Assembly: GCA_029945855.1 (NCBI GenBank)
Contig: JAQSDJ010000083.1
Coordinates: 1 to 44,031 of the forward strand
Source of the DNA: Lacunisphaera sp.
GTDB taxonomy: Bacteria > Verrucomicrobiota > Verrucomicrobiia > Opitutales > Opitutaceae
Direction of reading: 5' to 3'
Length of the DNA: 44,031 nt
Part shown: piece after piece, positions 3,734-35,797 of the stretch
How the letters are laid out: the number at the start of each line of letters is the position of its first letter
Position numbering within the stretch: position 1 is the first letter of the stretch
The notes under the pieces: generated by a model
Told to the model about the DNA's origin: nothing
Databases searched by the model: none
What the model saw: the letters and a program-made list of their open reading frames with translations, nothing else
Program-made: the position numbers and the translations under genes

Positions 3734-6643
3734 ATGTCGTTTTATCTTCGTCTGTTCAATGTCCTCCTTCTGGCCGTCATCACCACGATCGGCGCTACCC
3801 TCTCGTCCGAACTGCGCGGCGCACCCGGCAACGCCGGTCATCACCTGACGCTCCGGCTGAACGGCGAGGTCGAGGTCACCGGTCCCGACGGCGCCCGCGC
3901 AGTGTTTGCACCGGTTTTCAACGTTCTCCTGACCGGGAATAATCCAAACCTGGAAACACGCTGGGGGCGTTACAAGGACGGCGGCCTGAAAAGCGGAGAC
4001 ACCGGTTCGACCTACCATGTGCTCACCTGGGGAAAACCGGCCGACGCGGTCGTCACCAACGAACATGTGGCCGATGGTTACGACCCCGACTCGGATCGTT
4101 TCTACGGCGCGGATCGCTCACCCAATCTCTTTGCCGCCGGGAAACTTCTAACCCTGCGCGCCACCGGCGCACGGGAGGAGTCGGGCCGCATCATCTGGAC
4201 CTTTCCCCCGACCGACGGCGTGACGCTGAAGGCCGAACTCGTGGTGCCGGATGACGGCAGCCAGCCGCGCCTGAACCTGCAGGCCGAGGTCGCCAGGCCC
4301 GGCTGGTATTCATTCGGCTATGTCGGTGCTCCCGCCTGCGACCCGGCCGCGATCGACGAACTCTGGCAGCCACTGGTCTACACCGAGCGCCGCTTCCCCG
4401 AAGATTCCTTTCTCGAAGCAGCCGCGCGCTGCCCTCTTCCCACCACGCTGGTCAGGCATGGCGGCACGACTGTCGGCGTGATGGCCGACCCGGCGGAGCT
4501 TCCCTTCCAGCCCATGCCCACCTTCGCCGCCTCCCGCTTCGGGGTCGCTCTGCGCAATCGCGCAGGCCAGGCGCAGCCCATGCTATTCGCGCCCATCCTC
4601 GGCGGCGCGGGCTCCAAACTGAAAGCCGGCGACCGCTTTGAGTTTTCCCACCGCCTTGTCGTCGTCCGCAAGAACATCGACCAGACGCAGGAGCTGCTCG
4701 CGCGCACGCTCTTCGGCTTCGCCGATGTGCGCCACAACATCCTCGGCTCGCTCAACGCCACTTTTGACCGCATGCTCGAATTCGGCCTAAGCGACCACGC
4801 GAAATTCAACACCGACCTCCGCGGCTTCGCCTACGATACGGATGTCCCGGGCTCCGTTAAAAATGTCTCCGCGCTGCATCCGCTCTCGCTCGCAATGGTC
4901 ACCGACAACCGCGAAATCTTCAACCGGCTCGCCCTGCCACTCGCGGAGTTTTTTGTCTCCCGCGAACGTTTCCTTTTCACCACTGACCCGACGGTCAAGG
5001 GCCAGTCCGCCTCCGCCCGGCTCGGCGGTCTCGGCGCTCCGCTCTCGGAGTTCAGCACGCTTTACCAGATGTCGGGCAATCGCACGCCGTTCTTCCTCTC
5101 GTCTGCGGAGTCCCTTTTCGGCAAAACCCGCGTGCTCAATCTCGTGGCCCCGTTGCGGGGCGATTTCTGGGCCAACTCGCTCGCTCTGTATCGTGCGACC
5201 GGTGACCGGAAGTGGCTCGAGCGCGCGAAACGCGATGCCGACGACTATCTGAAGCAGCGGATCGACACAGTTCAGACGAATTTCGAAGATCCTGATTCAC
5301 GCGGCTTGTTTTTCTGGACGTCCTTCAGCCCGCAGTGGAAGGAGCTCTTCGAACTTTACGAGGAAACCGGCGAGCGCCGCTACCTCGAAGCCGCCCGCAA
5401 AGGGGCCCGCAACTACACGCGTTACGTGTGGTTTTCTCCTCGCATTCCCCAGGGTGACGTCACGGTCAACACGGGCGGTTTCGCTCCCAATTATCGCAGC
5501 GGCCCGAAGTTCCCCAAAGTCCCGCTCGCCGAGGAATCCGTGCCCGCCTGGCAGGTTTCCGAGATCGGTCTGACGCCGGAATCCTCCGGCACGAGCCGCG
5601 GCCATCGTGGCATCCTCCTCGCCTGCTACGCGCCCTGGATGCTGCGCATCGCCGCGCTGACGAACGACACGTTCCTCCACGATGTCGCCCGCTCCGCGGT
5701 GATCGGTCGCTACACCAGCTTCCCCGGCTACCACCTGAACACCGCCCGCACGACCGCTTACCAGAAGCCCGATTTCGCCGAGCGGCCCAAGGACGAACTC
5801 AACGCGATGACGTCGATTCACTACAATCACATCTGGCCGGCGATCGCCTTGGTTTTCGACTACCTCGTCTCCGACGTGGTTGCGAAGTCCCAGGGCAAGG
5901 TCAGCTTTCCCAGCCACTACGCCGAGGGCTACGGCTATCTTCAGCAGAAGATCTACGGTGATCGTCCGGGCCGGGTCTACGACACCAATGATCTCTATCT
6001 GTGGATGCCCCCGGGCGTCGTCACGGTCGAGTCTCCGGAACTCAATTACGTCGTCGCCCGCGGAGAAAACAGGCTGGCGATCGCGTTCACCAATCAGTCG
6101 CAGGCCGCGGTCAGGAGCCGCGTGCGCATCAATCCGGAACTGGTCGGCCTGCCAGCTATCGGAGAAACCGCGAAAGTCACGCTCTGGATCGACGGTAAAA
6201 AGCAGCGGGCTCGCACGCTCGACGCCGATGGCTCCATGGAGATTGAAGCAACTCCCGCCGGGATCACCGCCATCGTGGTGCAAGGCGTCTCGCCGCAGGT
6301 CCGCTTCCAAGCCCAGGTGCTCTCAAAGGACGCCCGGCCCCTGCCCGCCGGCAGCGTATGCGAGCTGGGTTTCCGCGGCGCACGCGCAGTAGCCATGCGT
6401 TTCGGATCAGGCGATCTCACCAGCGTCTACGCCTACCTACCCGACTTCGAACGTGAGATCGTGCGCTCGACGCTGTTCCACCGTCAGGGCAATGGCGCTT
6501 TCGCGACGCTCGAAGACACCGCCTACCCCTACGACTACACCGTCCCGGTCAACTCCACCGCTCCGGTGGAATTCTACGTTGAAGTTCAACTCAAGGACGG
6601 CCGCACGGAGAAGTCTCCCGTCGGCAAGGTCATGCTCGAATAG
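3734..6643 (+). CDS. Large secreted protein of unknown family, paralogue A (probable carbohydrate-active enzyme)
   Basis: The 969-residue product has an N-terminal signal peptide (about 1-30). A beta-rich region of some 300 residues follows, then a helix-rich middle (about 330-720) starting near the FADVRHNILGSLN segment. A beta-rich C-terminal part carries the block YGDRPGRVYDTNDLYLWMP at about residue 742. The same order and blocks (VGYVGAPA-like, QPMLFAPILGG, VPAWQVS-x-GL, HRG, SDxxA) recur in the proteins at 8328-11201 and 26989-30234. The beta-sandwich, helical toroid, beta layout resembles many glycosidases and lyases. I do not recognise a characterised family; DUF5695 is a guess from memory, not checked. 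As first gene of the operon and linked to rhamnosidases, a glycan-cleaving role is inferred. No Shine-Dalgarno precedes the ATG. Confidence 0.85.
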   Translation: MSFYLRLFNVLLLAVITTIGATLSSELRGAPGNAGHHLTLRLNGEVEVTGPDGARAVFAPVFNVLLTGNNPNLETRWGRYKDGGLKSGDTGSTYHVLTWGKPADAVVTNEHVADGYDPDSDRFYGADRSPNLFAAGKLLTLRATGAREESGRIIWTFPPTDGVTLKAELVVPDDGSQPRLNLQAEVARPGWYSFGYVGAPACDPAAIDELWQPLVYTERRFPEDSFLEAAARCPLPTTLVRHGGTTVGVMADPAELPFQPMPTFAASRFGVALRNRAGQAQPMLFAPILGGAGSKLKAGDRFEFSHRLVVVRKNIDQTQELLARTLFGFADVRHNILGSLNATFDRMLEFGLSDHAKFNTDLRGFAYDTDVPGSVKNVSALHPLSLAMVTDNREIFNRLALPLAEFFVSRERFLFTTDPTVKGQSASARLGGLGAPLSEFSTLYQMSGNRTPFFLSSAESLFGKTRVLNLVAPLRGDFWANSLALYRATGDRKWLERAKRDADDYLKQRIDTVQTNFEDPDSRGLFFWTSFSPQWKELFELYEETGERRYLEAARKGARNYTRYVWFSPRIPQGDVTVNTGGFAPNYRSGPKFPKVPLAEESVPAWQVSEIGLTPESSGTSRGHRGILLACYAPWMLRIAALTNDTFLHDVARSAVIGRYTSFPGYHLNTARTTAYQKPDFAERPKDELNAMTSIHYNHIWPAIALVFDYLVSDVVAKSQGKVSFPSHYAEGYGYLQQKIYGDRPGRVYDTNDLYLWMPPGVVTVESPELNYVVARGENRLAIAFTNQSQAAVRSRVRINPELVGLPAIGETAKVTLWIDGKKQRARTLDADGSMEIEATPAGITAIVVQGVSPQVRFQAQVLSKDARPLPAGSVCELGFRGARAVAMRFGSGDLTSVYAYLPDFEREIVRSTLFHRQGNGAFATLEDTAYPYDYTVPVNSTAPVEFYVEVQLKDGRTEKSPVGKVMLE

Positions 6644-6790
6644 GTCTCCGCTCGCTCACCGTTCCGCCGGCCGCCAGGCCAGCGGCGAACGGCTTCCACT
6701 CTCCCCGGCCGCGCCCACCCGCGCGGCCCGTGCATCTCGCATCGCCGGCCGAAACACCGCCGGCCGTGCCCGCTCCCTCTTGCTTTTCTT

Positions 6791-8338
6791 ATGAAACCGT
6801 CCACCCGCCCCCGCTTCACGCTCGGTCTGATTCTGATCACTTATCTCGCTGCCCTCGGCCAGCCAGCCGCCGCCGCACCACTGTCGCCCGCACAAGCCGG
6901 CCCGCTCGCCAAAACGTTCATCAATCCTCTGCCCCTGCCCGATTATCCGTTGGGAAACTGGACGCAAAAGCCGTCACCCACGATGGATCGCTGGTTGAAG
7001 GGTTTTCGTCAGGACTTCCGCGAACTGGCGGACCCTTCCGTCATCTATCACGAGGGCAAATGGATCATGTATCCATCCGTCGCGATGGCTTACGTGACCG
7101 AGGATTTCACCACGTGGACGCATCATCCCATCCAGCCCTCGAAGATCGGTGACGGCTACGCACCCAGCGTGGCCGAGCACGACGGCAAGTTCTACCTCGT
7201 CGGTTGCTTTTCGGAACTCTACGTCGCGGATCATCCGCTCGGGCCGTTCAAGTCCCTCGGCCCGATCACCACCCCGGACGGCGGCGAAACGATCGACAGC
7301 GTGATCTTCGATCCGATGCTTTTTTCCGACGAAGGGAAACTTTACCTCTACTATCACGTCACCGGCGGATTGGTCGGCACACGGCTGGACTCCAAAAATC
7401 CGACGCGCATGGAGGTGCTTCCCAAGCAACTCGCCGGCGCCCGCACGGATCAGGAGTGGGAACGTTACGGTGAATACAATGAGGATCCCCGCCGCTCCTT
7501 CATGGAAGGCGTGTGGATGTTCAAGGACAAGGGCACCTACTACCTCACCTTCACCGGCCCCGGCACCGCGCTCGGCACCTACGCGCTCGGCACCTACAAA
7601 GGATCCTCACCGCTGGGCGACTTCGTATATCAGAATAAAAATCCCGTGCTGCGGAAACCGTTCGGCGTCGTGCCCGGCTCGGGTCACGGCTCGATTGTGC
7701 GCGGACCTAACGACACCCTCTGGGCGTTCGTGACGAGCGTGGTCGGGAACTACCACGTCTTCGAGCGGCGGGTCGGCCTGTTCCCGGTCGGCATCGACAG
7801 CGAGGGCGATCTTGTGGGCCTCGCCGTGCGCGACGTTCCCCAGCACGCTCCCGGCACCCTCGCTCATCCGGAAAAAGGCAACGAGGCCGGCTGGCTTCCC
7901 GTGAGCGTTCGCACGATTGCGACTGCATCAAGCGTCGCGCCGGGCCGCACCGCCGACTACGCGATGGACGACAGCGCCCGCACATGGTGGCAGCCGGCGG
8001 ACAACGACGAGTCGCCCGCGCTCACCCTGGATTTGAAATCCACCTACGAGGTCGCCGCCGTGCGCGTCCTCTGGTCGGAGCCGGGGCTCGATCATGAGAA
8101 GGGCGTGCTGCCCGGTCCGGTCCGTTACCGCGTGCTCGCGCAGGCTTCACGCAATGCCGAATGGCGGACCGTGGTCGATTGCAGCGAAAACACCACCGAT
8201 CTGCTCATCGACTACCGCACGTTCGAAACGGCGCAGGCGCGCCGCATGAAGCTGGAGATCGTTGGCGCTCCGGCCGGCGTCGGCATCGGCGTGCTCGAGT
8301 TCACCGTCTTCGGTCGTCCCCCCGCTCATGCGAAATAG
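6791..8338 (+). CDS. GH43-type beta-propeller glycosidase with C-terminal F5/8 (CBM32-like) domain
   Basis: The 515-residue exported protein has a signal peptide ending near AAAA (about residue 28) and a five-bladed propeller domain to about residue 360. Three GH43 landmarks are visible: ADPSV near residue 82 (general base Asp), FDPMLFSDEGKLYLYYH near 174 (pKa-modulating Asp) and SFMEGVWMF near 239 (general acid Glu). PGSGHGS near 300 fits the metal or active-site His. The last 130 residues, with the WWQPADNDESPALTLDL stretch, look like an F5/8-type galactose-binding domain. GH43 members are mostly arabinofuranosidases, xylosidases or galactanases; specificity cannot be read here. It is 147 bp after paralogue A and overlaps paralogue B by 11 bp, so the three are probably co-expressed. 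Confidence 0.88.
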   Translation: MKPSTRPRFTLGLILITYLAALGQPAAAAPLSPAQAGPLAKTFINPLPLPDYPLGNWTQKPSPTMDRWLKGFRQDFRELADPSVIYHEGKWIMYPSVAMAYVTEDFTTWTHHPIQPSKIGDGYAPSVAEHDGKFYLVGCFSELYVADHPLGPFKSLGPITTPDGGETIDSVIFDPMLFSDEGKLYLYYHVTGGLVGTRLDSKNPTRMEVLPKQLAGARTDQEWERYGEYNEDPRRSFMEGVWMFKDKGTYYLTFTGPGTALGTYALGTYKGSSPLGDFVYQNKNPVLRKPFGVVPGSGHGSIVRGPNDTLWAFVTSVVGNYHVFERRVGLFPVGIDSEGDLVGLAVRDVPQHAPGTLAHPEKGNEAGWLPVSVRTIATASSVAPGRTADYAMDDSARTWWQPADNDESPALTLDLKSTYEVAAVRVLWSEPGLDHEKGVLPGPVRYRVLAQASRNAEWRTVVDCSENTTDLLIDYRTFETAQARRMKLEIVGAPAGVGIGVLEFTVFGRPPAHAK

Positions 8339-11201
8339 CCGCCCGCGCCTGCTCGCGTTGACGCTGTTTATCACGCCGCTGCTCTGCGCCGCGACGCTGG
8401 AAAACGACCGCTACCGGCTGGAGATTGGGGCGGACCACGCGGTGACGCTTTCCGCGAAAGGCGTCCCGACCCAGGTGCTCCAGCCGGAATTCACGGTCCT
8501 CTTCAGCGAGCGGGATCCCGGCTATCACGTTAACCACCAGAACTACCCGCTGGCCCCGCGCACCGCGGTGCGCTGGTCCGGTTACGAAGAGGAACTGTCC
8601 GCACTCAACCCGCGGCTGGCTTCACCCGCGCTGCGTGAGTTGCTGCATAGCCAGGTTTCGGTGACGGCCGACGCCCGCGGCGCCCGCACCTGGACCTACC
8701 GCGATACGGCCGGCAAAATCACACTGCGGGTCAGTGGCGCCTACGCCCGGGGCACGACCGATCCTTTCCTCGCCGGAAAGCGCACCGTGCTGCGCGCGCA
8801 GAACGCCGTCCTCGCCGGCCGCACGCTGAGCTGGACGTTTGCCGCGCAGGCCGGCTTCACTATTTCCGCCGAGCTTTCGCTGCCCGAAGGCGACGGCGAT
8901 CCCCGGATCTCCCACCGTCTGGAAGCCCGGCGCGCCGGCCACTACTCGGTGGCGTTCAGCGGAGCGCCATCGGTGAAGAAAGACGAGGTCCTCACGATCC
9001 CGCAGGAGACCGCCGGCCGGGGACTGCGGCAGTTCAATCATCTGGTCAACGAAGCCTACCTCCGCCTGCCGCGCGCCCAGCTCGCGACGGCGGATTGGAG
9101 CGCGGCGCTGGTCGTCGATTCGGGCGAGATGCCGTTTCGCATTCCCACCCGGCAGAATGCCCGCTTCGGCCTGATGATGCAGCTCGCGGACGATCGATTT
9201 AAACCCATCGCGTTTGCGCCGATCATCGGTGGAGCGGAGTCGCACCTGAAGCCGGGCGAGGCCCGCACGTTTGCCGTGCATTACGTCCTGCGCCCCGGCG
9301 ATTGGAAAGACACCTACGTCTATATCGCGCGCGCTCTTTATGCGTTCCGGGATCAACGTGACCACACCGGTCCCGGCTCGATCAACGCCGCGCTGGAAGC
9401 CACGATGGATTTTCTCGCCGATCGCCACGGCGGAAACCGAGCGCTCTGGCACGACGAGCAAAAATACTACGACTACTGGACGGATAACTCCGGCATATTC
9501 AAACCGTTCTCCCCGCTCTTCGGCCTGTCGGCCGCCGTCGTGACCGATGACGAGGAGTTCTACCTTCGCCGCGCGCTTCCCCAGGTCGAGTTCGCGCTCT
9601 CGCGCGCCGACAACACGTTCGCTCCTTACGAGGTCGCGCAAAACGGCCAGGTTAAAGCGCGCAACCGCGAGTTGGGCCGCTCTTACCTCAGCACGGCGCA
9701 ACTCGTGACGCTGTCCTCATTTTTCCAGCACCGCACGCCCGCCATTATGCTCGCCGCGCGCACCCAGGGCTTCTCTGAAAGCAACTTCACCGACCTGCTC
9801 GCGCGTCACGTTCTCTCGGGAAATGCCGCCGACCTCGCGGCCGCGCGTCGCGTCGCGGATTCCGAACTGAAAAAAGGCCTGCCCGTGAGTCAGGGCGAGG
9901 GCTACATGGACTGGCTCGAACTCTACGAAGTCACCCGCGAACCCCGCTACCTCGATGCCGCGGTCGCCGGAGCTTACGGTCTGACGACGACCATCAATCT
10001 CTCGCCTGCGATTCCCGCCGGAGCGGTCGTAGTTGAAGCTCACGACCGCGTGCCCGTCCACGAGCACTCGGTCGGACGCCACCGACTGTGGGGATTTCAA
10101 CCGCCGCAGCCCGTCGTCTTGGCGACGAAAACCGTGCCCGCGTGGCGCGTGGCGTTCACCGGTCTGCAATCTCCCGCATATCGCGGTGAATTGTGGATGA
10201 ACAACCACGGCCAGTTGATGCGCCTCGCCGCGCATGCCAACGACGATTTCCTCCGTGACATTGCACGCTGGGGCATGGTCGGCCGCTTCGGCAATTATTC
10301 GGGGGACAATCGTTCGAACTACTCCCTCATCACCGAACGTTCAGACTCCGTTGAGCGGTCGCCCTGGGACTGGAATTTCGCGACCGTCAATCCGGGGCAC
10401 GCCTGGGAATTCGCCGGTGAGCTCATTGATTTCCTGGTGAGCGATGCGTTTCACCGCTCACGTGGCGCGATCGATTTTCCCGGCCAGCCGATGCCGGGCG
10501 CATCGTTTCGCGTGCGCGTTTACGGCGATCGTCCCGGGCGTTTCCATGGCGACGAAAACGTGCGCCTGTGGCTGCCGCGCCAGTTGATCACGAGCGACAA
10601 TCGTCAGATCGATTACCTCGCCGGATACGGCAATGGAAAAGTCTATCTCGCCTTCTGGAATCAATCGTTCGTCGAAGAAGCTGTGAACATCGTCATCGAC
10701 CGGCAGCGCGTCGATCTCAGCCAGGCGACCTCCGCGCTTCTCTCCGTGCAGAACGGCCCGGCCCGGTCCACCCCGCTTGCGGGTCAGACGCTCTCATTCC
10801 ATCTTCCGCCCAAAGGAATCGCCGCCTACACGATCTCGGGCGCGCAGGTGCATCCAGCGCTTCAGGCGAAGATGCTGGCCACGGACGTCCCCGCCCTCGG
10901 CCCCGACAGCCGCGCGCGTGCCGCCGCTCCGTTTGGTCAGGTCTACGCGACCCTCATTTCACTCGGTCGCGGTCTTACGAGCGCGCACGTTTACACCGAC
11001 GCCCTGCCGGAAGAAATCATCGCGGCAACCCTTCGCTACCGGCAGGGCGGCGGAGACTGGCGCGAACTCACCGATGGGATATTCCCTTACGAGTTTTCTC
11101 CTCCTTACGTCGAAAAGGCCGGAGCGCTCGAACTCGTTTTCAGGGTGGAAACCTCCACGCAAAAAATCGAGCAAGCCCCCCTGATCACGTTGCGACCCTG
11201 A
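8328..11201 (+). CDS. Large secreted protein of unknown family, paralogue B
   Basis: Starting at the ATG at 8328 gives 957 residues with a clean signal peptide (MRNSRPRLLALTLFITPLL). The frame is open further upstream, but that part lies inside the GH43 gene. The layout matches paralogue A: a beta-rich N-terminal region containing IAFAPIIGGAESHLKPGE, a helical middle from about residue 340, then the block YGDRPGRFHGDENVRLWLP near residue 730 followed by YGNGKVYLAFWNQS. It is the most diverged of the three. The HRG element of A and C is replaced by WMNNHG, and the early N-terminal segment differs. This may mean a different substrate. Its start overlaps the end of the GH43 gene by 11 bp and only 5 bp separate its stop from the next ATG. 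Function is unassigned. Confidence 0.85.
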   Translation: MRNSRPRLLALTLFITPLLCAATLENDRYRLEIGADHAVTLSAKGVPTQVLQPEFTVLFSERDPGYHVNHQNYPLAPRTAVRWSGYEEELSALNPRLASPALRELLHSQVSVTADARGARTWTYRDTAGKITLRVSGAYARGTTDPFLAGKRTVLRAQNAVLAGRTLSWTFAAQAGFTISAELSLPEGDGDPRISHRLEARRAGHYSVAFSGAPSVKKDEVLTIPQETAGRGLRQFNHLVNEAYLRLPRAQLATADWSAALVVDSGEMPFRIPTRQNARFGLMMQLADDRFKPIAFAPIIGGAESHLKPGEARTFAVHYVLRPGDWKDTYVYIARALYAFRDQRDHTGPGSINAALEATMDFLADRHGGNRALWHDEQKYYDYWTDNSGIFKPFSPLFGLSAAVVTDDEEFYLRRALPQVEFALSRADNTFAPYEVAQNGQVKARNRELGRSYLSTAQLVTLSSFFQHRTPAIMLAARTQGFSESNFTDLLARHVLSGNAADLAAARRVADSELKKGLPVSQGEGYMDWLELYEVTREPRYLDAAVAGAYGLTTTINLSPAIPAGAVVVEAHDRVPVHEHSVGRHRLWGFQPPQPVVLATKTVPAWRVAFTGLQSPAYRGELWMNNHGQLMRLAAHANDDFLRDIARWGMVGRFGNYSGDNRSNYSLITERSDSVERSPWDWNFATVNPGHAWEFAGELIDFLVSDAFHRSRGAIDFPGQPMPGASFRVRVYGDRPGRFHGDENVRLWLPRQLITSDNRQIDYLAGYGNGKVYLAFWNQSFVEEAVNIVIDRQRVDLSQATSALLSVQNGPARSTPLAGQTLSFHLPPKGIAAYTISGAQVHPALQAKMLATDVPALGPDSRARAAAPFGQVYATLISLGRGLTSAHVYTDALPEEIIAATLRYRQGGGDWRELTDGIFPYEFSPPYVEKAGALELVFRVETSTQKIEQAPLITLRP

Positions 11202-11206
11202 TCCTC

Positions 11207-11785
11207 ATGAATTTGAAACGCCTGTTCATCCTTCTGCTTTTGGTGGCCGGCGGCTCGCCGCTTTCAGCCACGGATTTCGAGATTTCCGGCGAATTTCTCG
11301 CCTACATGAAAGCCGTGACCAATCCCCACGACTTCGGACGGAAAGACGGCCGCTACCATCCCTATTCCACGCGTTACGGCCGGCGCATCGGCTACGCGCG
11401 GGCCGTCACCGACAAATCCCTTTACACACGGGGTGAAACCCGGGCCGAAGCCGAACAGCACCTGCGTCACGCTCTTTCCACGACGGCGCTGGCCTTGGAG
11501 GCCTGGCTGGCGCGAAAGCACCCGGACTCGCCGCTTGATTCGCTCGATCCTCGCGCGCGGGAAATCCTCGTCGATCGCGCGTTCACCGATGGCGTTGAAA
11601 ACCTGCCGCCGGCTTTCTGCGCGGCTGTGCTGCGCGCCGACTGGGCGACGCTTCTCGACGAACACCTTTACGTGCGTGCCCCCGAAGGCTGGCCTGACAC
11701 CACTCAAAATCACGCCTTTGGCCTGCGCTGGATTTACGGCGAAACCGGCACCCCTCTCCGTCCGCTGAAAAAAACCACCCGATGA
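11207..11785 (+). CDS. Small exported protein with lysozyme-fold (GH24-like) features
   Basis: The 192-residue product has a signal peptide ending near PLSA. Its body reads like a phage-type lysozyme. YSTRYGRRIGYARAV resembles the GH24 Y-x-D-x-G-x-x-T-I-GYG segment, RGETRAEAEQHLRHAL resembles the GIT-x-x-x-A-x-x-LL-x-x-D-L helix, and REILVDRAFTDGVENLP resembles the L-x-x-x-AFN-x-G segment. The catalytic Asp and Thr expected between Tyr and GYG are not obvious, so it may be inactive or act differently. It lies 5 bp after paralogue B and its stop overlaps the GH78 start by 4 bp. The fold assignment is by eye and tentative; an unrelated accessory protein is possible. Confidence 0.75.
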   Translation: MNLKRLFILLLLVAGGSPLSATDFEISGEFLAYMKAVTNPHDFGRKDGRYHPYSTRYGRRIGYARAVTDKSLYTRGETRAEAEQHLRHALSTTALALEAWLARKHPDSPLDSLDPRAREILVDRAFTDGVENLPPAFCAAVLRADWATLLDEHLYVRAPEGWPDTTQNHAFGLRWIYGETGTPLRPLKKTTR

Positions 11786-15462: not shown

Positions 15463-15518
15463 TCATCACTCCACATTGCGACGCCACGGACGCCTGCCCG
15501 TCGTCTCTCAACTCACTT

Positions 15519-20306: not shown

Positions 20307-20316
20307 AACGGGCGGC

Positions 20317-21147
20317 TCAGGGTTGGGGCAAGGCGAGCTGGGCACGGACAAAGTCAGCGCACCGTTTCACCTCGTCGAGGTTGTTTTCGGGATTGGATTC
20401 GTATTCGATGACCAGCCAGCCGACGAAGCCCTGCCGACCTAGCTCTTTCAAGATGCCGGCGAGATCGAGCACGCCGGTGCCGTAAACCTGGTCGGGCGTG
20501 CGCCGGCCGATGGCGGCGCGTTCCTTCAGGTGCACGGACTTGATGCGCCCGGCGAGCAGCCGGACCGCATCGAGGGGCACGACGTTGGAGGTCGCATAAT
20601 GACCAGTGTCGGCGCAGACGCCGATGCGCTCATGCCGGCCCTTGAGCAGGGCGCTCATGAAGTGCGGGTCGGAATTGCGATACTCCGGCTTCTGCGGGTT
20701 CGTCGGGTGGTTGTGGAACGCCACGGTGAGATCGTAATCGCCGATGATCTTCTCGATTGTGTCCACCGATTCGACGGAGTCCGTCCCGAGGTTGCGGGCC
20801 CCGAGCCGCACGGCCGTCGCGAAAAAGGCGCGGGCCCTGGCCTCGTCCTTCGGCACGGCGCCCATGCAGCTCGCAATCTCGACTCCGTGCTTTTTCAGGT
20901 GCGCGCGCAGGCGCTCCAGCTGGACGTCGGACAGTTCGTAGATCCGGGTCGGATCATCCGGGCTCAGCGGGAGATTGGTGAAGGTCTCGATGTAGCGCAC
21001 CCCGCATTGTGCGGCCTTTTCGATCGCGCCGAACAGCGTGTCCTTGCGGAAGGTATAGGCCGCGCACGCCAGTTCGGGCCTGGCCGGCTCCGCCGTGCAG
21101 GCGGTCCCGGCCAGCAGGCAGGAAAGGAAGATCAGTCGGATATTCAT
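20317..21147 (-). CDS. Exported TIM-barrel sugar isomerase/epimerase-like protein
   Basis: The 276-residue product belongs by pattern to the xylose-isomerase-like TIM-barrel (AP endonuclease 2) superfamily. VAFHNHPTN, VCADTGHY, KSVHLKE and WLVIEYES supply the His, Asp, His and Glu typical of its divalent-metal site. Unlike the usual cytoplasmic enzymes it begins with an export signal (MNIRLIFLSCLLAGTACTA). A lipobox is imperfect, so soluble export is as likely as a lipoprotein. It starts inside the SGNH stop (ATGA, 4-bp overlap) and is followed 10 bp later by the Tat-exported Gfo/Idh enzyme. The pair resembles the oxidoreductase plus isomerase-like pairs of 3-keto-glycoside and C-glycoside degradation. 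That role is inference. Confidence 0.88.
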   Translation of the reverse strand: MNIRLIFLSCLLAGTACTAEPARPELACAAYTFRKDTLFGAIEKAAQCGVRYIETFTNLPLSPDDPTRIYELSDVQLERLRAHLKKHGVEIASCMGAVPKDEARARAFFATAVRLGARNLGTDSVESVDTIEKIIGDYDLTVAFHNHPTNPQKPEYRNSDPHFMSALLKGRHERIGVCADTGHYATSNVVPLDAVRLLAGRIKSVHLKERAAIGRRTPDQVYGTGVLDLAGILKELGRQGFVGWLVIEYESNPENNLDEVKRCADFVRAQLALPQP

Positions 21148-22793
21148 GGGATCAACACCTCCAGGATGCGCTGTGCATAGATGCGGTGCAGGAAGTCGTT
21201 CGGGTGGTTCGCCCCGTTGCCGGAGAGGTCGAGGTAGTCCTTGCGCTCGAGCATCGACAGCTCGGTCGAGGTCACGTCGACAAATGCCACGCCGGGCCGG
21301 GCGACGCGGAGACCCTCGTCGCGAATGAACTTCACCGGATCGAGCCCGGTCGCCTGCTTCGGGTTGTTCAGCATCGGAGTGATGAGCACGAACTCGGTCT
21401 CGGGCGAGCGCGCACGCACGGCGTCGATGATCTTCTCGAGGTTCTCCCGGTAACCGACGCGACGCGCCGCGCTGCGGTCGTTCATGCCATAGGCCAGCAG
21501 CACGAGGTCCGGCTTGAACCAGGCGACTTGCGAATCGACCTGCGTAAGCGCGTGGCTCGAGGTGCCGCCGCCGCGCGCGTGATTCATGAAAGTGATCGGC
21601 GCACCATAGGTCTGCTTGAGCTGCCAGATCACCAGATCGCCAAAGGGGGGTTGATAGGGCCAGACCGCGTTGATGCGCGACGAATCATAGCCGGCCGAAA
21701 TGCTATCGCCGAACAGCACGACTTTCAGCGGCGCCTTGGCCTGCAGGAGCTTCTTCGTCCGGGGGAGCTGGTCCAGTGACGAGTGCGCCGCCGGCCAGTT
21801 CCAGTCGCGTGTCGCCGGTTCGTAAGTGACCTCCATCTGCCGCTCGTGATACCAGGCGCCGGATGTGAGCTTGATGGCGTTGCGCACCATGGTGACGGAG
21901 CCGTCTTTCTCCTTGCGCGGCGCCAGGAAGAACTCGGCGGCGAGTTGGACCGGCGCACGCGAGCCCGGCGGCAGCACCACGCGGCCGCCCCGCAGCACCC
22001 AGTCGCGCCCTTCCTGAAGCCGCTCGCCCGTGCCGAGCGCGATGACCTCGGTGACTGTCTTCGCCGGATAGAGGAGCTTCAACTCGACCTCCTTGCTCCG
22101 ATCCTCGATCACCGCAATGCAGGACTCGCGGTAAACCTCTGTTCCGCGGACAATGGAGGTGATGCGCCGGTCCCAGTCGTCCGGCCAGTCCTGGGGCGAA
22201 GCGATCTCCAGTGGCGGCACGGTCGTCGGCAGCGCATAAACTTCATAGGCGGCCGGCTTGCCCGTGAGGCGGATCGCGAAGCGGACCTTCCGTTCGCCCG
22301 CCGGCCGGGCGAGCACCCGGTTCACGGCGTCGGTCACGTCGACCGGATAGCTGGCCACCGTCCCGCCGGGCTTCAAGTGAATGCTGCCCGCGAGGGTTTC
22401 GCTGCCATCTGCCGCCACCGTGAACAGGTGGATCGCGCCGCGCTCCACTCCCGTGCTCTGGCCCGGGCGTTTTACCGGCAGTTTCTCGAGATCGAGTGTG
22501 ATGCGCGCCGACGGCGTCATTTTTGCCGCCACCTTGCCAAGGTCGAAATCGAGCCTGGCGCCGGCCGCACCAGCGGGCTCGTTCGACAAGAGGAGACGCC
22601 CCGGCGCCTCGGCCCCGGGCACGAGCGTGCCGATCGCGGCCGCCCGGGTGACGGGGATGGACTGCAGCGAGGACATGGCGATCGCCGAGGCGAAACTCGC
22701 CAGCGCGCACAGAATGACTCCGGCCAGCCGGAGTCGCGGGGTGATCTGACCGCCTGACGCAGGCATCGGGGTGGAACGATTGATCGGGTTCAT
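21144..22793 (-). CDS. Exported SGNH/GDSL esterase, probable carbohydrate deacetylase
   Basis: The 549-residue protein starts at 22793 (MNPINRSTPMPASGG), 10 bp after the GH2 stop. Its signal-peptide-like hydrophobic stretch lies at about residues 22-42. Residues 50-330 are beta-rich and include a DNRLRE-like jelly-roll segment with LDFDLGKVAAKM and ITLDLEKLP. The catalytic domain follows: LFGDSISAGYD near 359 (nucleophile Ser), GGGTSSH (oxyanion Gly), YGMND near 436 (oxyanion Asn), and NHPNDFLHRIYA near 530 (Asp and His). This two-domain form is seen in glycan acetylesterases, so removal of O-acetyl groups from the imported or surface glycan is likely. The stop overlaps the next start by 4 bp. 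Confidence 0.9.
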   Translation of the reverse strand: MNPINRSTPMPASGGQITPRLRLAGVILCALASFASAIAMSSLQSIPVTRAAAIGTLVPGAEAPGRLLLSNEPAGAAGARLDFDLGKVAAKMTPSARITLDLEKLPVKRPGQSTGVERGAIHLFTVAADGSETLAGSIHLKPGGTVASYPVDVTDAVNRVLARPAGERKVRFAIRLTGKPAAYEVYALPTTVPPLEIASPQDWPDDWDRRITSIVRGTEVYRESCIAVIEDRSKEVELKLLYPAKTVTEVIALGTGERLQEGRDWVLRGGRVVLPPGSRAPVQLAAEFFLAPRKEKDGSVTMVRNAIKLTSGAWYHERQMEVTYEPATRDWNWPAAHSSLDQLPRTKKLLQAKAPLKVVLFGDSISAGYDSSRINAVWPYQPPFGDLVIWQLKQTYGAPITFMNHARGGGTSSHALTQVDSQVAWFKPDLVLLAYGMNDRSAARRVGYRENLEKIIDAVRARSPETEFVLITPMLNNPKQATGLDPVKFIRDEGLRVARPGVAFVDVTSTELSMLERKDYLDLSGNGANHPNDFLHRIYAQRILEVLIP

Positions 22794-22803
22794 GAGGGTA
22801 AAT

Positions 22804-25644
22804 TCAGGCGTGGATTCCGGGGACGACTGCGGACTCGAAATCCGGCGCAATTTTAGCGGGCGGCCGGAACAGATGCAGAATCTGCGGGGCCGTCACCTCC
22901 TCCTTCGGCTGGAAGGCGTCGCTCTCCATGTAGCGCAGAATGCTGAACAGCAGCTGCCGCACCTCGGGCTTGTCGCGGTGCTGGAGGAAATCAATCGAGG
23001 CAAACATCAGCCGGCCACGACCCAACCGGGCCTCGAACAGCAGACCGAGTTTCCGGCTGGTTTCGAAATTGTCGATTACCTGCACCAGCGGCTGCAGCGT
23101 GCGCGGCAAACCGTCGAGGATGATGGGGCGGCCGTAACGGGCCATCGGCCACCACTGCCAGTTCGAATGGAATTCGGTGGGGAAATGCCGGAACACCGGA
23201 TGCGCGGGATCCAGCAACAGGCCGAGTGTGCCCGGCCCCTCGTAATTCTTGAAAAAGGCCACCGTCCAGAAATTCGCGATAAACTGTCCCTCGATCGTGG
23301 CGCCGAGGTTGGGCAGCCGCGGCAGCACCAGCACGGTGCCGCCGGCCTCCACCCGCTTGAGCAAGGCCTCGTCCACGACGTCGGCGATCTCCATGCCCTT
23401 GGGGATGTCGTAGCGCACCGCCGCGGGATAAACCCACAGGTCATATTCGTTGCGCCAGGGCGTGCCCTCCACGCTCACCTCGCAGCACAGCTGCGCCGGC
23501 GCCGCCAGGCCCGCCAGCGGGAATTCCACCGTGGCGACATCCGCCCCGCCCCCCGCTGGACGGTCGCGCGCCGGCCGCCGGCGCTCGGCGAGCACCCGGC
23601 CGCCGGTATCGCGCAAGCGCACGCATACTTCCGCCGCCGGCAGGTTGGCGCGGTGGTATTGCGCCACCTCCACTCGCGCGCTGAAAGTCTCGGCCGCCGT
23701 CCACGTGCGCTTGGCAAAGCGCAGCAAGGGCACGACCGGCGCACAGAACTGCCGGAACCAGGCCGGATCGACGAAGGACTTCGGCTCCATGAAGGCGTTG
23801 CACATGCCCACCCACGCGCTGCCCTGCCCCGGATAATCCTGCAGATCGAGCAGGCTGTAGCCGGCCATACCGCGCGTGCGCAGCACGGATTCCATGTCCT
23901 CTTTGTAACAGAGCGCGGCGAGGCGGCCCGAGGCTTGGAAGAAGGCGCCGGCCTGGTGTCCCATGCCGCTCTTATCCAGGCGCTCCTTGAAGACTTCCAT
24001 CGGATAGGGCCGGAGCACGCCGGTGTATTTTGGCAGCTCATTGAAATCGGGGAATACCAGATACTGGCCCGTCTCATGGCTGAGCAATGGCACGGGGCTG
24101 CGCGCCGACGACGACGCATAGTCGACGAGGGTCGAGGCCGGATAGGCGTTGTTCAGGTGGCCGAGGTAGCCGTGCAGCATGGAGCCGCGGGTCAGCTCGA
24201 TATCCAGCACCACCCGGCCGCCTTCGCGTCGCGTGGCCGACACCGTCCAGTAATCGTCCACGTCGAGCGGCTCGGGCACAACGAAGTGGTTGTTCGACCC
24301 CTGCGCATACAGGCGGCTGGGATCAAGCTGCCGCAGGTGGGCGACGAGCGCGCGCCGGCCCGCGAGATCGCCGCCGAGTTCGTTGCCCATCGCCAGCATC
24401 ACGAACGAGGGATGGTTGCCATAGGCGCGAAGGACGGCCTCGCCCTCCGCGTGCAGATAATCCGCCAGCCCCGGCCGGTCGAACGGCCCCCAGGCGGGCA
24501 GCTCCGGCTGCAGGTAGACTCCGGCGCGATCCGCCGCACGGAACGCCGCCTCGGGCGGGCACCAGCTGTGGAACCGGAAGAAATTGATGCCAAACGACGC
24601 CGCGACGCGAAACACCTTTTCCCACCCCGCCTCGTCCATCGCCGCGTAGCCGGTCAGCGGGAACACGCCGGCGTCATGCTTGCCGCGCAGGAAAGTGACG
24701 GCGCCGTTGATCGTGAATTTTTTTCCGTCCCGCCGGAAATCGCGCAGGCCAAATTCAACCTCGCGTTCGTCGGCGCACGTCCGGCCATCGGCCAGCCGCC
24801 CGGCCAGTCCGATCTTCAGCTTCTGCAGTGCGGGGGAAAACTCATCCCACAGCGCGGCGTCCGACGGGATTTTCCGGATGAAAACCTGCCGGGTCTGTCC
24901 CGCCGGCAATCGCACGCACTCGATCACTCCGCCATCGCCGGCGGCCAGGGTCACATCAAATTCGCCGTCAGCTGCGGCCGCGCGACCGATCACGACTTCG
25001 ACCCGGGCCTCGCGAAGTGCCGCGTCGGGCCGCACCTGCACCTCCTCGATCCAAGCGGAATCCGTGGCCTGGAGTTCGATCCGGCCGACGATGCCGTTCC
25101 AGTTCGTCTGGATGCGATCAGCCCAGACATGGCTCAGGTGCATCGGATAGAGCCGGCGGTCGTTGTTCACGCGGACGCTCAGGCGGTGCCGGCCTGGAAC
25201 GGCCGACTTGGTCAGCACAAAGCGGTGCGGCGTGCTCAGGCTCGCCCCCTCCCCGACGGCACGCGATCCGAACCAGGCCTTGGTGAAACGCGTCCGCTCC
25301 AGCCGCAGCTCAACGCGCTTGCCGGCCCACTCCGCGGGGATCTCGATGTCGTGCTGATACCAGGCCGCGCCGTCGTAAGCAAAGCGGCGGTTCAATTCCG
25401 TCGTGGTCCGCAGCGGTGGCGTGCCGCGCCCGTTCTCGTCCAGCGTGCCGGGCAGCCGCACCGTGTCGCGCAGGTCGCGGGCAAACCAGTTTTCCCGCTC
25501 ACCGACATTTTCCGGGTCAAGCTCCAGGCGCCATGAACCGGCCAGTGACTTGATCTCTCTGGCGGGAGCCAGCCCCCCCAGGAGCAACGCCAGCAAAACC
25601 GACCCAAGGCGGGCTGAACGAAGGAGACTGGCACCTGTCGTCAT
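22804..25644 (-). CDS. Exported GH2-family glycosidase
   Basis: The 946-residue protein has a signal peptide (about 1-29). A jelly-roll sugar-binding domain begins at IKSLAGSWRLELDP and includes VRLPGTLDENG. An Ig-like domain and a TIM barrel follow. NHPSFVMLAMGNELGG near residues 409-424 provides the acid/base Glu, and PLLSHETGQY near 517-527 holds the likely nucleophile Glu. The H-E-x-G-Q form is common in uncharacterised GH2 proteins of plant-glycan loci. GH2 contains galactosidases, glucuronidases, mannosidases and arabinosidases; the substrate cannot be read from sequence. It overlaps the upstream esterase by 4 bp and precedes the SGNH gene by 10 bp. The last 250 residues include a segment (VLVLPRLPNLGATIEGQF) that looks like a glutamine-amidotransferase-like or flavodoxin-like fold. 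Confidence 0.9.
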   Translation of the reverse strand: MTTGASLLRSARLGSVLLALLLGGLAPAREIKSLAGSWRLELDPENVGERENWFARDLRDTVRLPGTLDENGRGTPPLRTTTELNRRFAYDGAAWYQHDIEIPAEWAGKRVELRLERTRFTKAWFGSRAVGEGASLSTPHRFVLTKSAVPGRHRLSVRVNNDRRLYPMHLSHVWADRIQTNWNGIVGRIELQATDSAWIEEVQVRPDAALREARVEVVIGRAAAADGEFDVTLAAGDGGVIECVRLPAGQTRQVFIRKIPSDAALWDEFSPALQKLKIGLAGRLADGRTCADEREVEFGLRDFRRDGKKFTINGAVTFLRGKHDAGVFPLTGYAAMDEAGWEKVFRVAASFGINFFRFHSWCPPEAAFRAADRAGVYLQPELPAWGPFDRPGLADYLHAEGEAVLRAYGNHPSFVMLAMGNELGGDLAGRRALVAHLRQLDPSRLYAQGSNNHFVVPEPLDVDDYWTVSATRREGGRVVLDIELTRGSMLHGYLGHLNNAYPASTLVDYASSSARSPVPLLSHETGQYLVFPDFNELPKYTGVLRPYPMEVFKERLDKSGMGHQAGAFFQASGRLAALCYKEDMESVLRTRGMAGYSLLDLQDYPGQGSAWVGMCNAFMEPKSFVDPAWFRQFCAPVVPLLRFAKRTWTAAETFSARVEVAQYHRANLPAAEVCVRLRDTGGRVLAERRRPARDRPAGGGADVATVEFPLAGLAAPAQLCCEVSVEGTPWRNEYDLWVYPAAVRYDIPKGMEIADVVDEALLKRVEAGGTVLVLPRLPNLGATIEGQFIANFWTVAFFKNYEGPGTLGLLLDPAHPVFRHFPTEFHSNWQWWPMARYGRPIILDGLPRTLQPLVQVIDNFETSRKLGLLFEARLGRGRLMFASIDFLQHRDKPEVRQLLFSILRYMESDAFQPKEEVTAPQILHLFRPPAKIAPDFESAVVPGIHA

Positions 25645-26978
25645 GGTGACTTTGCCGCCGCGGAGGCAATGTGCCGGAGAATCTCCGCACGGATCCGCGC
25701 GTCGTATTCAAGACGGGACACGTGGCCGGTATCCACGTGGTTCCAGATCTGTTTTGGCCCGGTGAGCTGGTTGTAGGTGGCATATACCCCGGTCGGCGGG
25801 CAGATGGCATCGATGAACCCAACCGTAAAAAATGCCGCCGCTTTCGTGCGCGTCGCGAAATTCATCGCGTCGTAATACCGCGTCACCTCCAGCCGGGCCG
25901 GATCGGGTTTGCCCGGGACGTCCGGCAATAGGTGCGGCCAGCCGTTGATCCGCCCGATCACGACGCCCGTGAGGTCGCAAAAGGCGGGAATCTCTGCAGC
26001 AATGAAGGTGACGCGCGGATCAAGCCCGGCAGCCACAATGGCTTGGCCGCCACCCTGGCTGCGGCCGCTGACGACCAGCTGCCGTCCATCCCATTCCGGC
26101 TGGGCGGTTACGGTCTCAAGCGCCCGCATCAGGCGCAAGAAGATGCCGCGCAGATACATTTCCTCCCGGTGGTCGCGACCCTTCAGGTAGTATTCCTTGA
26201 GCCGGCCGGAGCGCAGCTCGGCGTAAAACTCGGGCGGCTGGTCGTTCGGCAGGCCGTTGGCATTGAAATCGAGGGCAACAAAGCCGTCACGCGCACATTC
26301 CGCCGCGCGGCTCAGGCGGGATTTTACGACGCCGGCTCCATGCGTCAGAACGATGGCCGGCAAGGTCCGCGCCTGGGCTCCGACCGGCCGGGCGAGGTAA
26401 GCCGATAGCGGCGCCCAGCCGGGAATGTCCGCCTGCAGGTCGAAACACTCCACGCCGGGCAACGGCGACTTGACCGGCGTGAGCCGCACGTTGGCCGGCG
26501 TGCCCGCGAGCAGCTCCATCTGGCCCGCCCAGAACCCGTCGAAATCTGCCGGTGGCGGCAGGCTCGCGGCAATCGCCAGCGGGGCGTAGGCCGCCCCGGC
26601 ATGAGCCACCAGCTTCGTCTCACCGGCGGGCACAAAGTCCGCGGTGCAGCGCAGAAACCCCGGCTCATCCAACCGGGCCCGGACCGTGGCCTTTCCGTCC
26701 TGCAGCTTGGCGACGCCTTCGCGGCCGAGCGGCACACCGTCCTTGGTCACGACCCAGCGAACCTCCGCGTCCGGCGGCAGCGCCTGCCCCTCTCTCCCCA
26801 AAGTCAGGGTGAAGACCGCCTCGTCACCGCGCGCGTAGAGCGCTTCGGGGCGATCAGCGGCAACCTTGAGGGCGTAGCTTCCAACGGTAATTGGGGTGGC
26901 GGCCTGCAGCGTCAGCCCCGCGAGCAGCCCGATACACCACAACCGGCGGCAGATTTTCGAAACGATAGTCAGGTTCAT
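25641..26978 (-). CDS. Exported AXE1/CE7-like acetyl esterase
   Basis: From the ATG at 26978 the product has 445 residues and a signal peptide (MNLTIVSKICRRLWCIGLLAG). A start at 26999 is possible but would overlap the upstream stop. Residues about 20-140 form an Ig-like domain. The alpha/beta-hydrolase domain follows with VLTHGAG, nucleophile motif SGRSQGGG near 306-313, Asp in GFIDAICPP near 388 and His in DTGHV near 417, matching the Ser-Asp-His layout of CE7 acetylxylan and cephalosporin-C deacetylases. It probably removes acetyl groups from the target glycan or its oligomers. It sits 10 bp after paralogue C and overlaps GH2 by 4 bp. Confidence 0.88.
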   Translation of the reverse strand: MNLTIVSKICRRLWCIGLLAGLTLQAATPITVGSYALKVAADRPEALYARGDEAVFTLTLGREGQALPPDAEVRWVVTKDGVPLGREGVAKLQDGKATVRARLDEPGFLRCTADFVPAGETKLVAHAGAAYAPLAIAASLPPPADFDGFWAGQMELLAGTPANVRLTPVKSPLPGVECFDLQADIPGWAPLSAYLARPVGAQARTLPAIVLTHGAGVVKSRLSRAAECARDGFVALDFNANGLPNDQPPEFYAELRSGRLKEYYLKGRDHREEMYLRGIFLRLMRALETVTAQPEWDGRQLVVSGRSQGGGQAIVAAGLDPRVTFIAAEIPAFCDLTGVVIGRINGWPHLLPDVPGKPDPARLEVTRYYDAMNFATRTKAAAFFTVGFIDAICPPTGVYATYNQLTGPKQIWNHVDTGHVSRLEYDARIRAEILRHIASAAAKSP

Positions 26979-26988
26979 GTTATCAAAA

Positions 26989-29900
26989 TTACGATCCACC
27001 GGACTTCAGCCGCACCAAGCCCTCGGCTGAAGTCGCAGCGCCGGCGGGCGTCTCCGCCTCCACCGTGAATCGGAAATCCGCCGCACTGTCGTCGACCGGC
27101 ACCGTGAACTCAAACGGATAGCGGTCGCAGACCGCCTCGATCGCCCGACCGCCCGCTGTGCCGCGCACCGTCGCCGACCGCACGTCGCCCGGTCCGGCTT
27201 TCAGCCAGACATGCACGCTCGTGAGGCCGCGCCCAAAGCGCAGCGCCGAGGCGGTGACCGGACCGAAGGACGCCTTCACCGTCACGGAGCTTCCCTCCGG
27301 CAAAGCCGGGCTGGCTGGATCAAGTGCGGCGTCCTGGAGTTCGGTGACAGTTTCAACCTCCGGGATGATCAGCGCGACAAGTCCCTTGGACGTGACGGTC
27401 ACGGTCGCACGACCGTCACGCACCTCGACGGTGCCAGCGGCACGGCCGTCCTGCCAGAGGGCGGCGTGGCGCACGCCGGTCATGCTCGCCCGGCGGGTGT
27501 CCAGGCTAAAGGTCGCCGTGACCGGCCGCGCAGACTGGTTCGCGAAGGCCAGATAAAGCTTCCCGTTGCCGCGGGCCGTCAGGTAGTTGAGTTGCGGCGA
27601 ATCGACCGCGAGCAGCCCCTTCGGCAGCCAGAGATAAACCCCCTCGTCGCCCAAGAAGCGGCCGGCTTGTGCGCCGTAGAGCCGGTTGCGAAAAAACGCC
27701 CCGGTGTCGGTGAAGTCGGCCTCGAAATCGATCCGTCCGCCGGAGCGGGCCGCAAAATCTGATACGAGGTAATCGACGAGGAACGCGGTCATCGGCAGCG
27801 GATGATTGTAGTGCGCGGAGGTGAACTTCTTGATTTCCTCGAAGGAACGCAGCGGGTAGTCCGCCTTCTGGTGCACGGTGGTGTAGCCGTTGCGGTAGGC
27901 GTAGCTCGGATAATTCGCGTAGCGGCCGACGACGGCATTGCGCGCGATGTCCGTGAAAAGCGGCTCCGCTGCCTCGGCGCCAATCCGTGCCATGTAGCCC
28001 GCATAGCTCGTCATGAACACCCCTCGATGGCTGTGCGCCGTGCCAGCGCACTCGGCCGCCAGGCCGTTGGCTGAAACCTGCCACGCGGGCACGATCTCCT
28101 CGGGAACCGGCTGGCCGTTGTAGGTGCCGCCGGGATTCGCGGTAAAGTTGCCGGCCGGGGTCACCGGCACGAGATAGGTGTAACCCGAGAATGTGCGCAG
28201 CGCATCCGCCGCCGCCGTGAGAAACCGCCGCTCGCCGCTCGCACGGTAAAGTTCGTAGAGCAGATCGTAACCCGGAGCCAGTTCGGTCCAGAACGACGAC
28301 CGCACATCGCTGAAGTCCGCCGCCGGCTTCGCCACGCGCGCCGCCACGTAGCGATCACCCGCCGCCACCGCCCGTTCGAGGAACGCGCGGTCCTTGGTCA
28401 CCCGATACCAGGCGAGGTTCAGTTCCATGCCGTCGCGCTCGGTCAGGATCGGCGTGGCGGCGGAAATGGGACGGCGGATCGCCGGTTCGAGTTTCTCGCG
28501 CAGCACCGTGGTGCGGCCGCCGGTGAGCCGGAACGACGCGGCCATGTCCACCGGGTAATTCGTGAACCCGCCCATGAAATCCGCCGCGGCGAACTTCGTG
28601 GTGTTGCTCCTCCGCGAGAGGGAATACTCGAGTGTTGGCCGCGCGCGCCGCTCGAGCACGTCCGCGCGGTCGAGGACCAGCGCCAGCGAGATCGCGTCCG
28701 CCGCCGACTGCTGGCGGCCGGTGCCGGGGCCGCCATCGTTCTGGTAGCCCCACGTCTTGTATTGCGGATACCAGTAGGCGAATTCGTCGCGCAGGAAATA
28801 GTCCGTCAGGTTCTCGATCGTGGTATTGAGCGAGACCTCCAGGTTCTCGCGGACGTCGCCGAACTGGTAAAGCGTCCGCCCCAGATGCGCGTAGGCGTCG
28901 AACCATGAACCCTTGCGCACGAGCAGGCGCACCCGGAACGAGTAGGTCTCCCCCGCCGCGCGGCGTGACTCCGGTCCGCCGAGGATCGGCGCATACAGCA
29001 TCGGCTGCACCTGCCCGGCGGCGTCGCGCACCAGCACGCCAAAACGCGAATCCGAGATCGTCGGCATGCGGTAGGGCATTTCCGTGGCGTCGGCGCCGAC
29101 GCCCACGGCCGCGCCGTTGAGTCCGGCCATCACGAACGGGATCGGACACTGAAACTCCTTGGTCAGATAGGACCGGTTGGGAAACCGCCGGTCGTGCCAG
29201 ACCAGCGGTTGCCAGATCCAGTCCGCCTCCGCCATGGCCCGGGCCGGCGCACCCACGTAGCCCACGGAGAACTGACCGGCCGCGCGGGGGGTCAGCTCAA
29301 ACCGCAGCGACGGTTCCGAGCCGTCCCCGGGCAGGACAAACTCGGCCCGCAACGTGTAGCCCGGTTGCGCCGGGAATTCCCAGTGCAACCGGCCACCCGC
29401 CGCTTTCACGCTTTCCGCCCGCAGGCGCGTGCGCGGTCGCGCCGCCACGAGATAGTCGGTCTCCTTTTCCCACGAGGGCACGACGTAGTTCGTGTTTCCG
29501 ACCTCACCGATGTCGAGATACTTGCCACCCTTGGCATCCATCTTCGTCTCCTGTCCAGAAGGCTGGAACACCACCGCGAACTCCGGCGCAAAGACCGCCT
29601 GCGCCCCGCTGCGCTTCTCGGTCACGATGAGCGCACCGTCCGGACGCGATTCCGCGCGATAAGCGGCGTTCTCCAGCATGGCCACGGCGCCGATCACGGC
29701 ACCCGGCGCCGGACCGGCGGTGGCCTCGGCCACCACCTCCACCGTCTCCGCCGGCAACGGCGCGGGATCGCTCCATTCCACGGCGAAACGCGTGCTGGCT
29801 TCGAATCCAACGCCTTCCACCACTACCTCGTAAGGCCGCCCCTGCTTCAGCGGCACTTGCGCCGTCGCCGTGCCGGAGGGACCGACCGGCGCGGCTACCA

Positions 29901-30234
29901 CCCGACCGTCGATGCGCAGGGTCAGTGGACCGGTCAGCCGGACCGGGAAAACGCCGCTCACCGCCGGGGTCAGCGTCCCCGTCCAGAGGGCGGAAAACGG
30001 CGCTGCCGTGACCGCAACGGGCAGGTCGGACTCCGCGCCCACGTAGGCTTCGAGGCGGATGACCGCGGTCGCACCGGCGAGCCCGGGGTTGGCGAAGTAG
30101 CGGGCATTGAACGCCCGGTCGCCATCGCGCGCGTTGATCTCACCCCACGGCGCGGTGCCGAACGGGATGGAGGTGGCGGCGGCGAACACCGGCGCCAGCA
30201 GCAACGGCAGGAGAAAGCGAAGCAGTTTAATCAT
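26989..30234 (-). CDS. Large secreted protein of unknown family, paralogue C, with N-terminal PA14-like domain
   Basis: The ATG at 30234 ([20 protein letters not shown]) begins a signal peptide and gives 1081 residues. The same frame is artificially open into the GH95 gene upstream because of a frameshift there. Residues about 35-160 look like a PA14 sugar-binding domain ([37 protein letters not shown]). The remainder matches paralogues A and [53 protein letters not shown], and [20 protein letters not shown] near 851, then [14 protein letters not shown]. It is closer to A than to B. It lies 8 bp after GH95. An enzymatic or binding role on the rhamnose-rich glycan is inferred only from context. 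Confidence 0.88.
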
Positions 30235-30242
30235 GGGGAAGG

Positions 30243-35680: not shown

Positions 35681-35797
35681 ACAGGACAACAATGGGGTTA
35701 GAGAACAGTGCTCGTCGGATCGCAGTTGAACGCAACCGAAACGAGCGGGGTATAAGGTTTGATAGCAACTGGCCGTCCGGGATACAAAGACTCGCTA

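Follow-up and report, generated by a model that had tools for sequence, protein, structure and literature searches.

The window analysed here, the whole 44,031-nucleotide stretch of Lacunisphaera sp. contig C83 (C83:1-44031, from a genome of 5.0 Mb in 330 contigs), carries three genes for large proteins designated A, B and C. Protein A (969 amino acids, A clade) is encoded at 3734-6643 and protein B (957 amino acids, B clade) at 8328-11201, both on the plus strand, while protein C (1081 amino acids, C clade, with a putative N-terminal PA14 domain) is encoded at 26989-30234 on the minus strand. An earlier sequence-only reading had placed the genes at these positions, leaving the strand of C unstated. 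The three proteins are homologues with a similarity far above chance: BLASTP gave 30% identity over 861 columns for A and B (E 9e-90), 35% over 936 columns for A and C (E 4e-165) and 30% over 959 columns for B and C (E 1e-93). The motif blocks described in that reading were confirmed with small corrections. FAPILGG in A and FAPIIGG in B correspond to YAPILGG, not FAPI, in C; VPAW[QR]V-xxx-GL occurs in each; [IVL]YG-xxx-GR is common to them, with IYG as the version in A; LWMP in A is LWLP in B and C; and NQS is found in all three. Each protein begins with a hydrophobic stretch, read by eye as a signal peptide, and the proteins are probably secreted. The PA14-like domain proposed for C was weak in C, scoring 14.9 bits (E 0.024) where the cut-off is 24, but clear in its clade relatives L023 (E 8.1e-14) and L024 (E 3.9e-10). 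Furthermore, B lacks Glu616, His624, His696, Tyr697 and Asn698, all kept in A and C, which fits the proposal that B has diverged and that specificities are split.

The sequence-only reading could not tie these proteins to a characterised family, and our searches of Pfam, NCBIfam and the PDB sequences agreed with it. No Pfam match reached its cut-off in the family region of A, B or C. In A only sub-threshold matches were obtained, namely GH127 (PF07944; 17.9 bits over 75 residues, cut-off 24.9) and two weaker ones; B had none, sub-threshold matches included, and the region of C matched DUF7363 alone (E 0.76). The GH127 model found nothing in B or C. The AGE/cellobiose 2-epimerase model (PF07221) scored 11.4 bits in A against a cut-off of 23.4 and nothing in B or C, and the GH88/GH105 model (PF07470) found nothing in A, B or C and 16.3 and 14.2 bits in the distant F type of the family (see below), against a cut-off of 26.6. 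The catalytic models of GH78, GH95, GH97 and GH106 gave no above-cut-off match in the region of A, B or C, although the same models do name the neighbouring genes. NCBIfam had no match for the three proteins. PDB sequence searches with A, an F-type member and two family profiles returned chance or short helix-repeat matches alone, the best being a helix-repeat match to GH76 (E 8.1e-6). The structures of PL27 (5NO8/5NOK) appeared neither in phmmer (A, F-type member) nor in hmmsearch (two profiles) at E up to 10. Plasmid searches with A and with the F-type member found no match, and the portions of the literature consulted on the family, on rhamnogalacturonan II families and on a link between flavin adenine dinucleotide (FAD) enzymes and 3-keto sugars named no such family. 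As far as these tools reach, with the CAZy library not compared, the family is unclaimed by any Pfam or NCBIfam model, and we regard it as a new family built on a scaffold already known, not as a system of a new kind.

The nearest named relatives of A were found in Candidatus Didemnitutus metagenome-assembled genomes (Opitutaceae, Verrucomicrobiota) at 74% identity, and a related-locus search returned 26 loci, 25 from Verrucomicrobiota and one from Chitinophaga. Sampling of the phylum at E <= 1e-10 detected the family in 18 of 387 genomes, sampling of the order at E <= 1e-20 in 10 of 273, and sampling of Bacteroidota at E <= 1e-8 in 4 of 395, the starting genome being counted in each sample. 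No more than two or three top candidates were scored in any genome, which makes copy numbers lower bounds. Twenty genomes of the same genus gave no full-length match, with weak partial matches in two. Five members occur in the genome itself, namely A, B and C and two on contig C248, one of D type and one of F type. In a tree of 56 rows, built by a quick method and with some long branches, A, B and C fell into three separate clades together with relatives from other genomes, the D copy into a fourth and the F copy into a fifth. A, B and C thus appear from the tree to be old subfamilies gathered in one locus. A recent triplication was rejected, for the three lie in different clades, each with its own relatives. 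Therefore they probably act on different linkages, and the earlier suggestion that they share one core activity and substrate is supported only in part. Part of the gene order (family gene, GH43, family gene, GH106) is repeated in L008/L009, and one genome (G881) has three members within 20 kb. In Chitinophaga sp. E66 (L032, 523-10657) three adjacent sites carry members, and the reading frames of all are broken, which may reflect sequencing error. Two Didemnitutus loci (L030, 2-11225; L031, 2564-14432) have two tandem members each, of 1760-2037 amino acids, and the two that were scanned carry Ig and CBM96/DNRLRE-type domains.

The fold of A was predicted with AlphaFold2 from a 39-row alignment, and the barrel was also modelled alone. 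The model (mean predicted local distance difference test score, pLDDT, 86.3; predicted template modelling score, pTM, 0.89) bore out the beta-rich N-terminal part and helical middle of the first description. It comprises an N-terminal beta-supersandwich (residues ~35-311; 3836-4666, plus strand), a linker helix, an (alpha/alpha)6 barrel that is presumably the catalytic domain (residues ~340-719; 4751-5890, plus strand; six helix pairs read from the helix list), a C-terminal beta-sandwich (residues ~725-850; 5906-6283, plus strand) and an FNIII-like domain (residues ~880-969; 6371-6640, plus strand) with VIA matches to FNIII domains at Z 9.2-9.8. Whole-model Foldseek matches, to EngBF, GH97 and cellobiose phosphorylases, reached E 2.4e-7 but had low TM-scores. 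The barrel-only model (pLDDT 78.9, pTM 0.83) matched cellobiose 2-epimerase (VIA Z 16.6), GH76 (15.8), PL27 (15.3) and unsaturated glucuronyl hydrolase (14.8). The 50 whole-model VIA matches listed fall on the N-terminal and FNIII domains, with no PL27 among them, which excludes nothing. The predicted scaffold is a known one, and fold comparison does not assign the family a place on it.

Conservation was read from the 56 rows, which all cover profile positions 200 to 760 or more; fragments were dropped, as were rows with a 100-residue stretch in common, the near-identical pairs L008/L009 and L030/L031 were retained, and core (42 rows), deep (8) and F (6) groups were labelled by hand from the tree. 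Arg659, His699, Asp709 and Ser719 were invariant (56/56), Arg638 was kept in 55 rows and Tyr367 in 53, and position 331 was Asp in 53 rows and Glu in three. Asp370, Glu405, Arg333, Arg410 and Trp757 were also invariant in all 42 core rows, and at position 370 the eight deep rows carry an acidic residue (seven Glu, one Asp). In A the codons of Tyr367 to Asp370 lie at 4832-4843, that of Arg659 at 5708-5710 and that of His699 at 5828-5830, all on the plus strand. Going by helix order in the model, the long loops would lie on one barrel face with Tyr367, Arg659 and His699 facing it. Among the 50 non-F rows, the long-loop stretches 353-380, 601-632 and 657-696 averaged 2.34-2.52 bits and the other four 1.40-2.00.

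The three genes sit, as had been described, in a large glycan locus, with neighbours named here by their Pfam matches. A lies between a TonB-dependent receptor (115-3288, minus strand) and a GH43 (6791-8338, plus), B between this GH43 and a GH78 alpha-L-rhamnosidase (11782-15462, plus), and C between an AXE1-type esterase (25641-26999, minus) and a GH95 (30235-32634, minus). A GH106 alpha-L-rhamnosidase occupies the open frame 15081-18992 (plus), with a true start perhaps later, and a second GH106 lies at 32642-35692 (minus). The GH2 at 22804-25644 (minus) is nearest the NCBIfam model of exo-beta-1,4-galactosidase BT4151 (752.5 bits, below the cut-off of 1500). An alpha/beta hydrolase, an Esterase-family protein, two carboxylesterases, a second GH43 and the end of a GH2 were also named. 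The probable target of the locus is a rhamnose-, galactose- and arabinose-containing glycan, e.g. rhamnogalacturonan I or an arabinogalactan. A Gfo/Idh gene (18933-20351, minus) is nearest the BT_2158 glycoside 3-dehydrogenase model of NCBIfam (360.7 bits, below the cut-off of 750) and overlaps a gene for a sugar-isomerase-like TIM barrel (the pair spans 18933-21147, minus); the two perhaps belong to a keto-glycoside pathway. The protein of 21144-22850 (minus) looks secreted, and its C-terminal half reads, by sequence, like an SGNH/GDSL esterase. The end of the GH95 reads in a frame other than that of its catalytic domain, so that either the assembly is wrong here or the gene is damaged, and because of this a joint open frame of 1881 amino acids runs through GH95 and C. 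A GH95-C fusion was rejected, as the other-frame tail of the GH95 stops just before the ATG of C.

The context of relatives was examined in 37 loci of at least 10 kb with a member, three duplicates having been dropped, and neighbours were counted within 6 kb. L087/L088 are adjacent pieces of one contig and L101/L102 two places on another; C was scored as GH95, so its neighbours were left out of the tally; and, given that these loci are mutually related, the counts are no independent statistic. A relative of FAD_oxidored (PF12831) lay near a member in 17 loci, one of them (L105) weak at 53 bits. An MFS transporter was found in seven and a sodium symporter in seven others, followed by GH43b-like (6), Gfo/Idh (6), GH97 (5, and one more via a second GH97 query), GH106b-like (4), GH95 (3) and sulfatase genes (3). 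Relatives are adjoined by GH43-, GH106-, GH95- and GH97-like genes, TonB or SusC/SusD. On contig C248 (L007, 1-11387) a D-type member, an MFS transporter, FAD_oxidored, the F-type member and a GH97 stand in a row. PF12831 had 11 matches in this genome, of which the one between the D and F copies is full-length and the rest reach no more than 130 of 416 positions. In Bacteroidota, locus G666 likewise combines members, FAD_oxidored, GH97 and a sodium symporter. The window copies A, B and C are without this cassette of FAD_oxidored and transporter. Three MFS neighbours were nearest a D-galactonate transporter model, below its cut-off. The FAD_oxidored starts look cytoplasmic in L022 and L089, and one in L090 (4231-6030) looks secreted, so an order of cleavage, import and oxidation is only a guess. 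The GH2 of the Bacteroidota cassette has a beta-glucuronidase as its best PDB match, and a link to such an activity was tried; the Asn-x-Lys motif expected after the TIM barrel was not seen in the GH2 of L089 or L090, NCBIfam models of GalA beta-galactosidase and beta-glucuronidase scored about alike and all below cut-off, and nothing was drawn from it.

Taken together, we favour, at somewhat below even confidence, a family, as yet unnamed, of large secreted enzymes that cleave glycans in an exo manner, with inverting hydrolysis mildly preferred and subfamilies of different linkage specificity. In its favour stand the homology and hydrophobic starts of the three proteins, fold matches to carbohydrate-active (alpha/alpha)6 enzymes, the invariant and nearly invariant residues, the glycosidases and esterases of the locus, the separate clades and the neighbours of relatives. 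Homology, predicted fold, conservation and gene context are shown, and secretion, catalysis, chemistry and substrate are inferred. The barrel pocket, formed by the loops 353-380, 601-632 and 657-696 of A and lined by His699, Arg659 and Tyr367, would hold the end of a pectin-like glycan containing rhamnose, galactose and arabinose, and in the core clades Asp370 and Glu405 would probably serve as acid/base pair. A, B and C would be the old subfamilies, each for a different linkage. Relatives with D- and F-type operons would probably import the product and oxidise it with the FAD-dependent enzyme. Several points weigh against this proposal. Position 370 is Gly in the six F rows and position 405 is Asn (5) or Ser (1); Glu405 is kept in six of the eight deep rows and is Ala in two, therefore the acid pair is not family-wide. 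Taken together the long loops average 2.09 bits, whereas the helices reach 2.37 and 2.56, and the placing of the pocket comes from helix order. The scaffold that the fold comparison matched is very common, with no single family standing out on it, and for every member the activity is so far a prediction.

The strongest competitor, doubtful though serious, is that the proteins are exo-lyases like PL27 (L-rhamnose-alpha-1,4-D-glucuronate lyase, BACCELL_00875), in which the His/Tyr/Arg set would abstract the C5 proton of a uronic acid and a capping sugar such as rhamnose would leave by beta-elimination. Among the 50 whole-model Foldseek matches listed, 5NO8 has the highest TM-score (0.28/0.37), but at a root mean square deviation of 13.3. 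The model of A repeats the order of N-terminal beta-sandwich and (alpha/alpha)6 barrel given for PL27 in PMC8377490; other barrels score like that of PL27. A His/Tyr/Arg triad serves the lyase sites of PL25 and GH145 (PMC8406133), and the His, Arg and nearly invariant Tyr of our family are comparable to it. The galactonate-like MFS neighbours point the same way. However, PL27 was absent from the PDB sequence matches, Asp370 and Glu405 are kept by the core clades, and a screen of loci at E <= 1e-3 found no GH88/GH105 relative; it used six queries, of which that from L078 matched itself alone and is probably in the wrong frame, leaving five effective. Nor did such a relative stand beside members in the 37 context loci. 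The seven GH88/GH105 matches in the genome are all on other contigs. Hydrolysis is mildly favoured over such elimination, because no unsaturated-uronyl hydrolase (GH88/GH105) was found near members, the core clades keep Asp370 and Glu405, and the setting is one of exo-glycosidases.

It is unlikely that only the genome is new and that the proteins belong to an already numbered CAZy family unmodelled in Pfam and NCBIfam. These two libraries do not hold every CAZy family, but no solved-structure relative was found by sequence, members were rare in an uneven sample of Bacteroidota, the best-studied glycan degraders, and the consulted parts of the literature name no such family. Less probable still is a class of secreted (alpha/alpha)6 lyases depending on His, Arg and Tyr, with no carboxylate acid/base pair, which would perhaps cleave oxidised (keto) glycosides and be accompanied by the cassette of FAD oxidoreductase and importer in two phyla (C248; G666, G662, G603); the window copies would then be a pectin-like-glycan branch beside the glycoside 3-dehydrogenase-related gene. 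That the proteins are non-catalytic glycan-binding or scaffold proteins on an enzyme fold is very improbable, for although members carry extra PA14, FNIII-like, Ig and CBM96-type domains, polar residues are invariant across 56 divergent rows and the (alpha/alpha)6 fold class is mostly enzymatic.

If the favoured glycan-cleaving enzymes are active, they would be a new enzyme family of several clades for the breakdown of pectic glycans and arabinogalactan in Verrucomicrobiota and some Bacteroidota, and the association of FAD_oxidored with a sugar importer in two phyla would point to an uncharacterised catabolic route for the released products. The clade structure, the short residue list and the cassette of the D and F types are the useful results. 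Compared with known enzymes, the likeness to GH127 beta-L-arabinofuranosidases is a sub-threshold match over 75 residues of A, without any counterpart in B or the core of C. GH94, GH97 and EngBF-type enzymes give the best whole-model Foldseek E values (2.4e-7 to 2e-4) and match the beta-supersandwich, but the TMq is 0.12-0.21 and their catalytic domains have no Pfam match in the family. AGE/cellobiose 2-epimerase, GH76 and GH88/GH105 enzymes share the (alpha/alpha)6 barrel (VIA Z 14.8-16.6) and short sub-threshold or repeat-level sequence matches, whereas they are mostly single-barrel proteins and lack an above-cut-off Pfam match here. Although the family differs from PL27 in its added C-terminal beta domains, in sequence and in its neighbours, where GH88/GH105 was not seen, its model resembles PL27 in the succession of an N-terminal beta domain and an (alpha/alpha)6 barrel, the barrel match extending over 298 residues including the linker helix.

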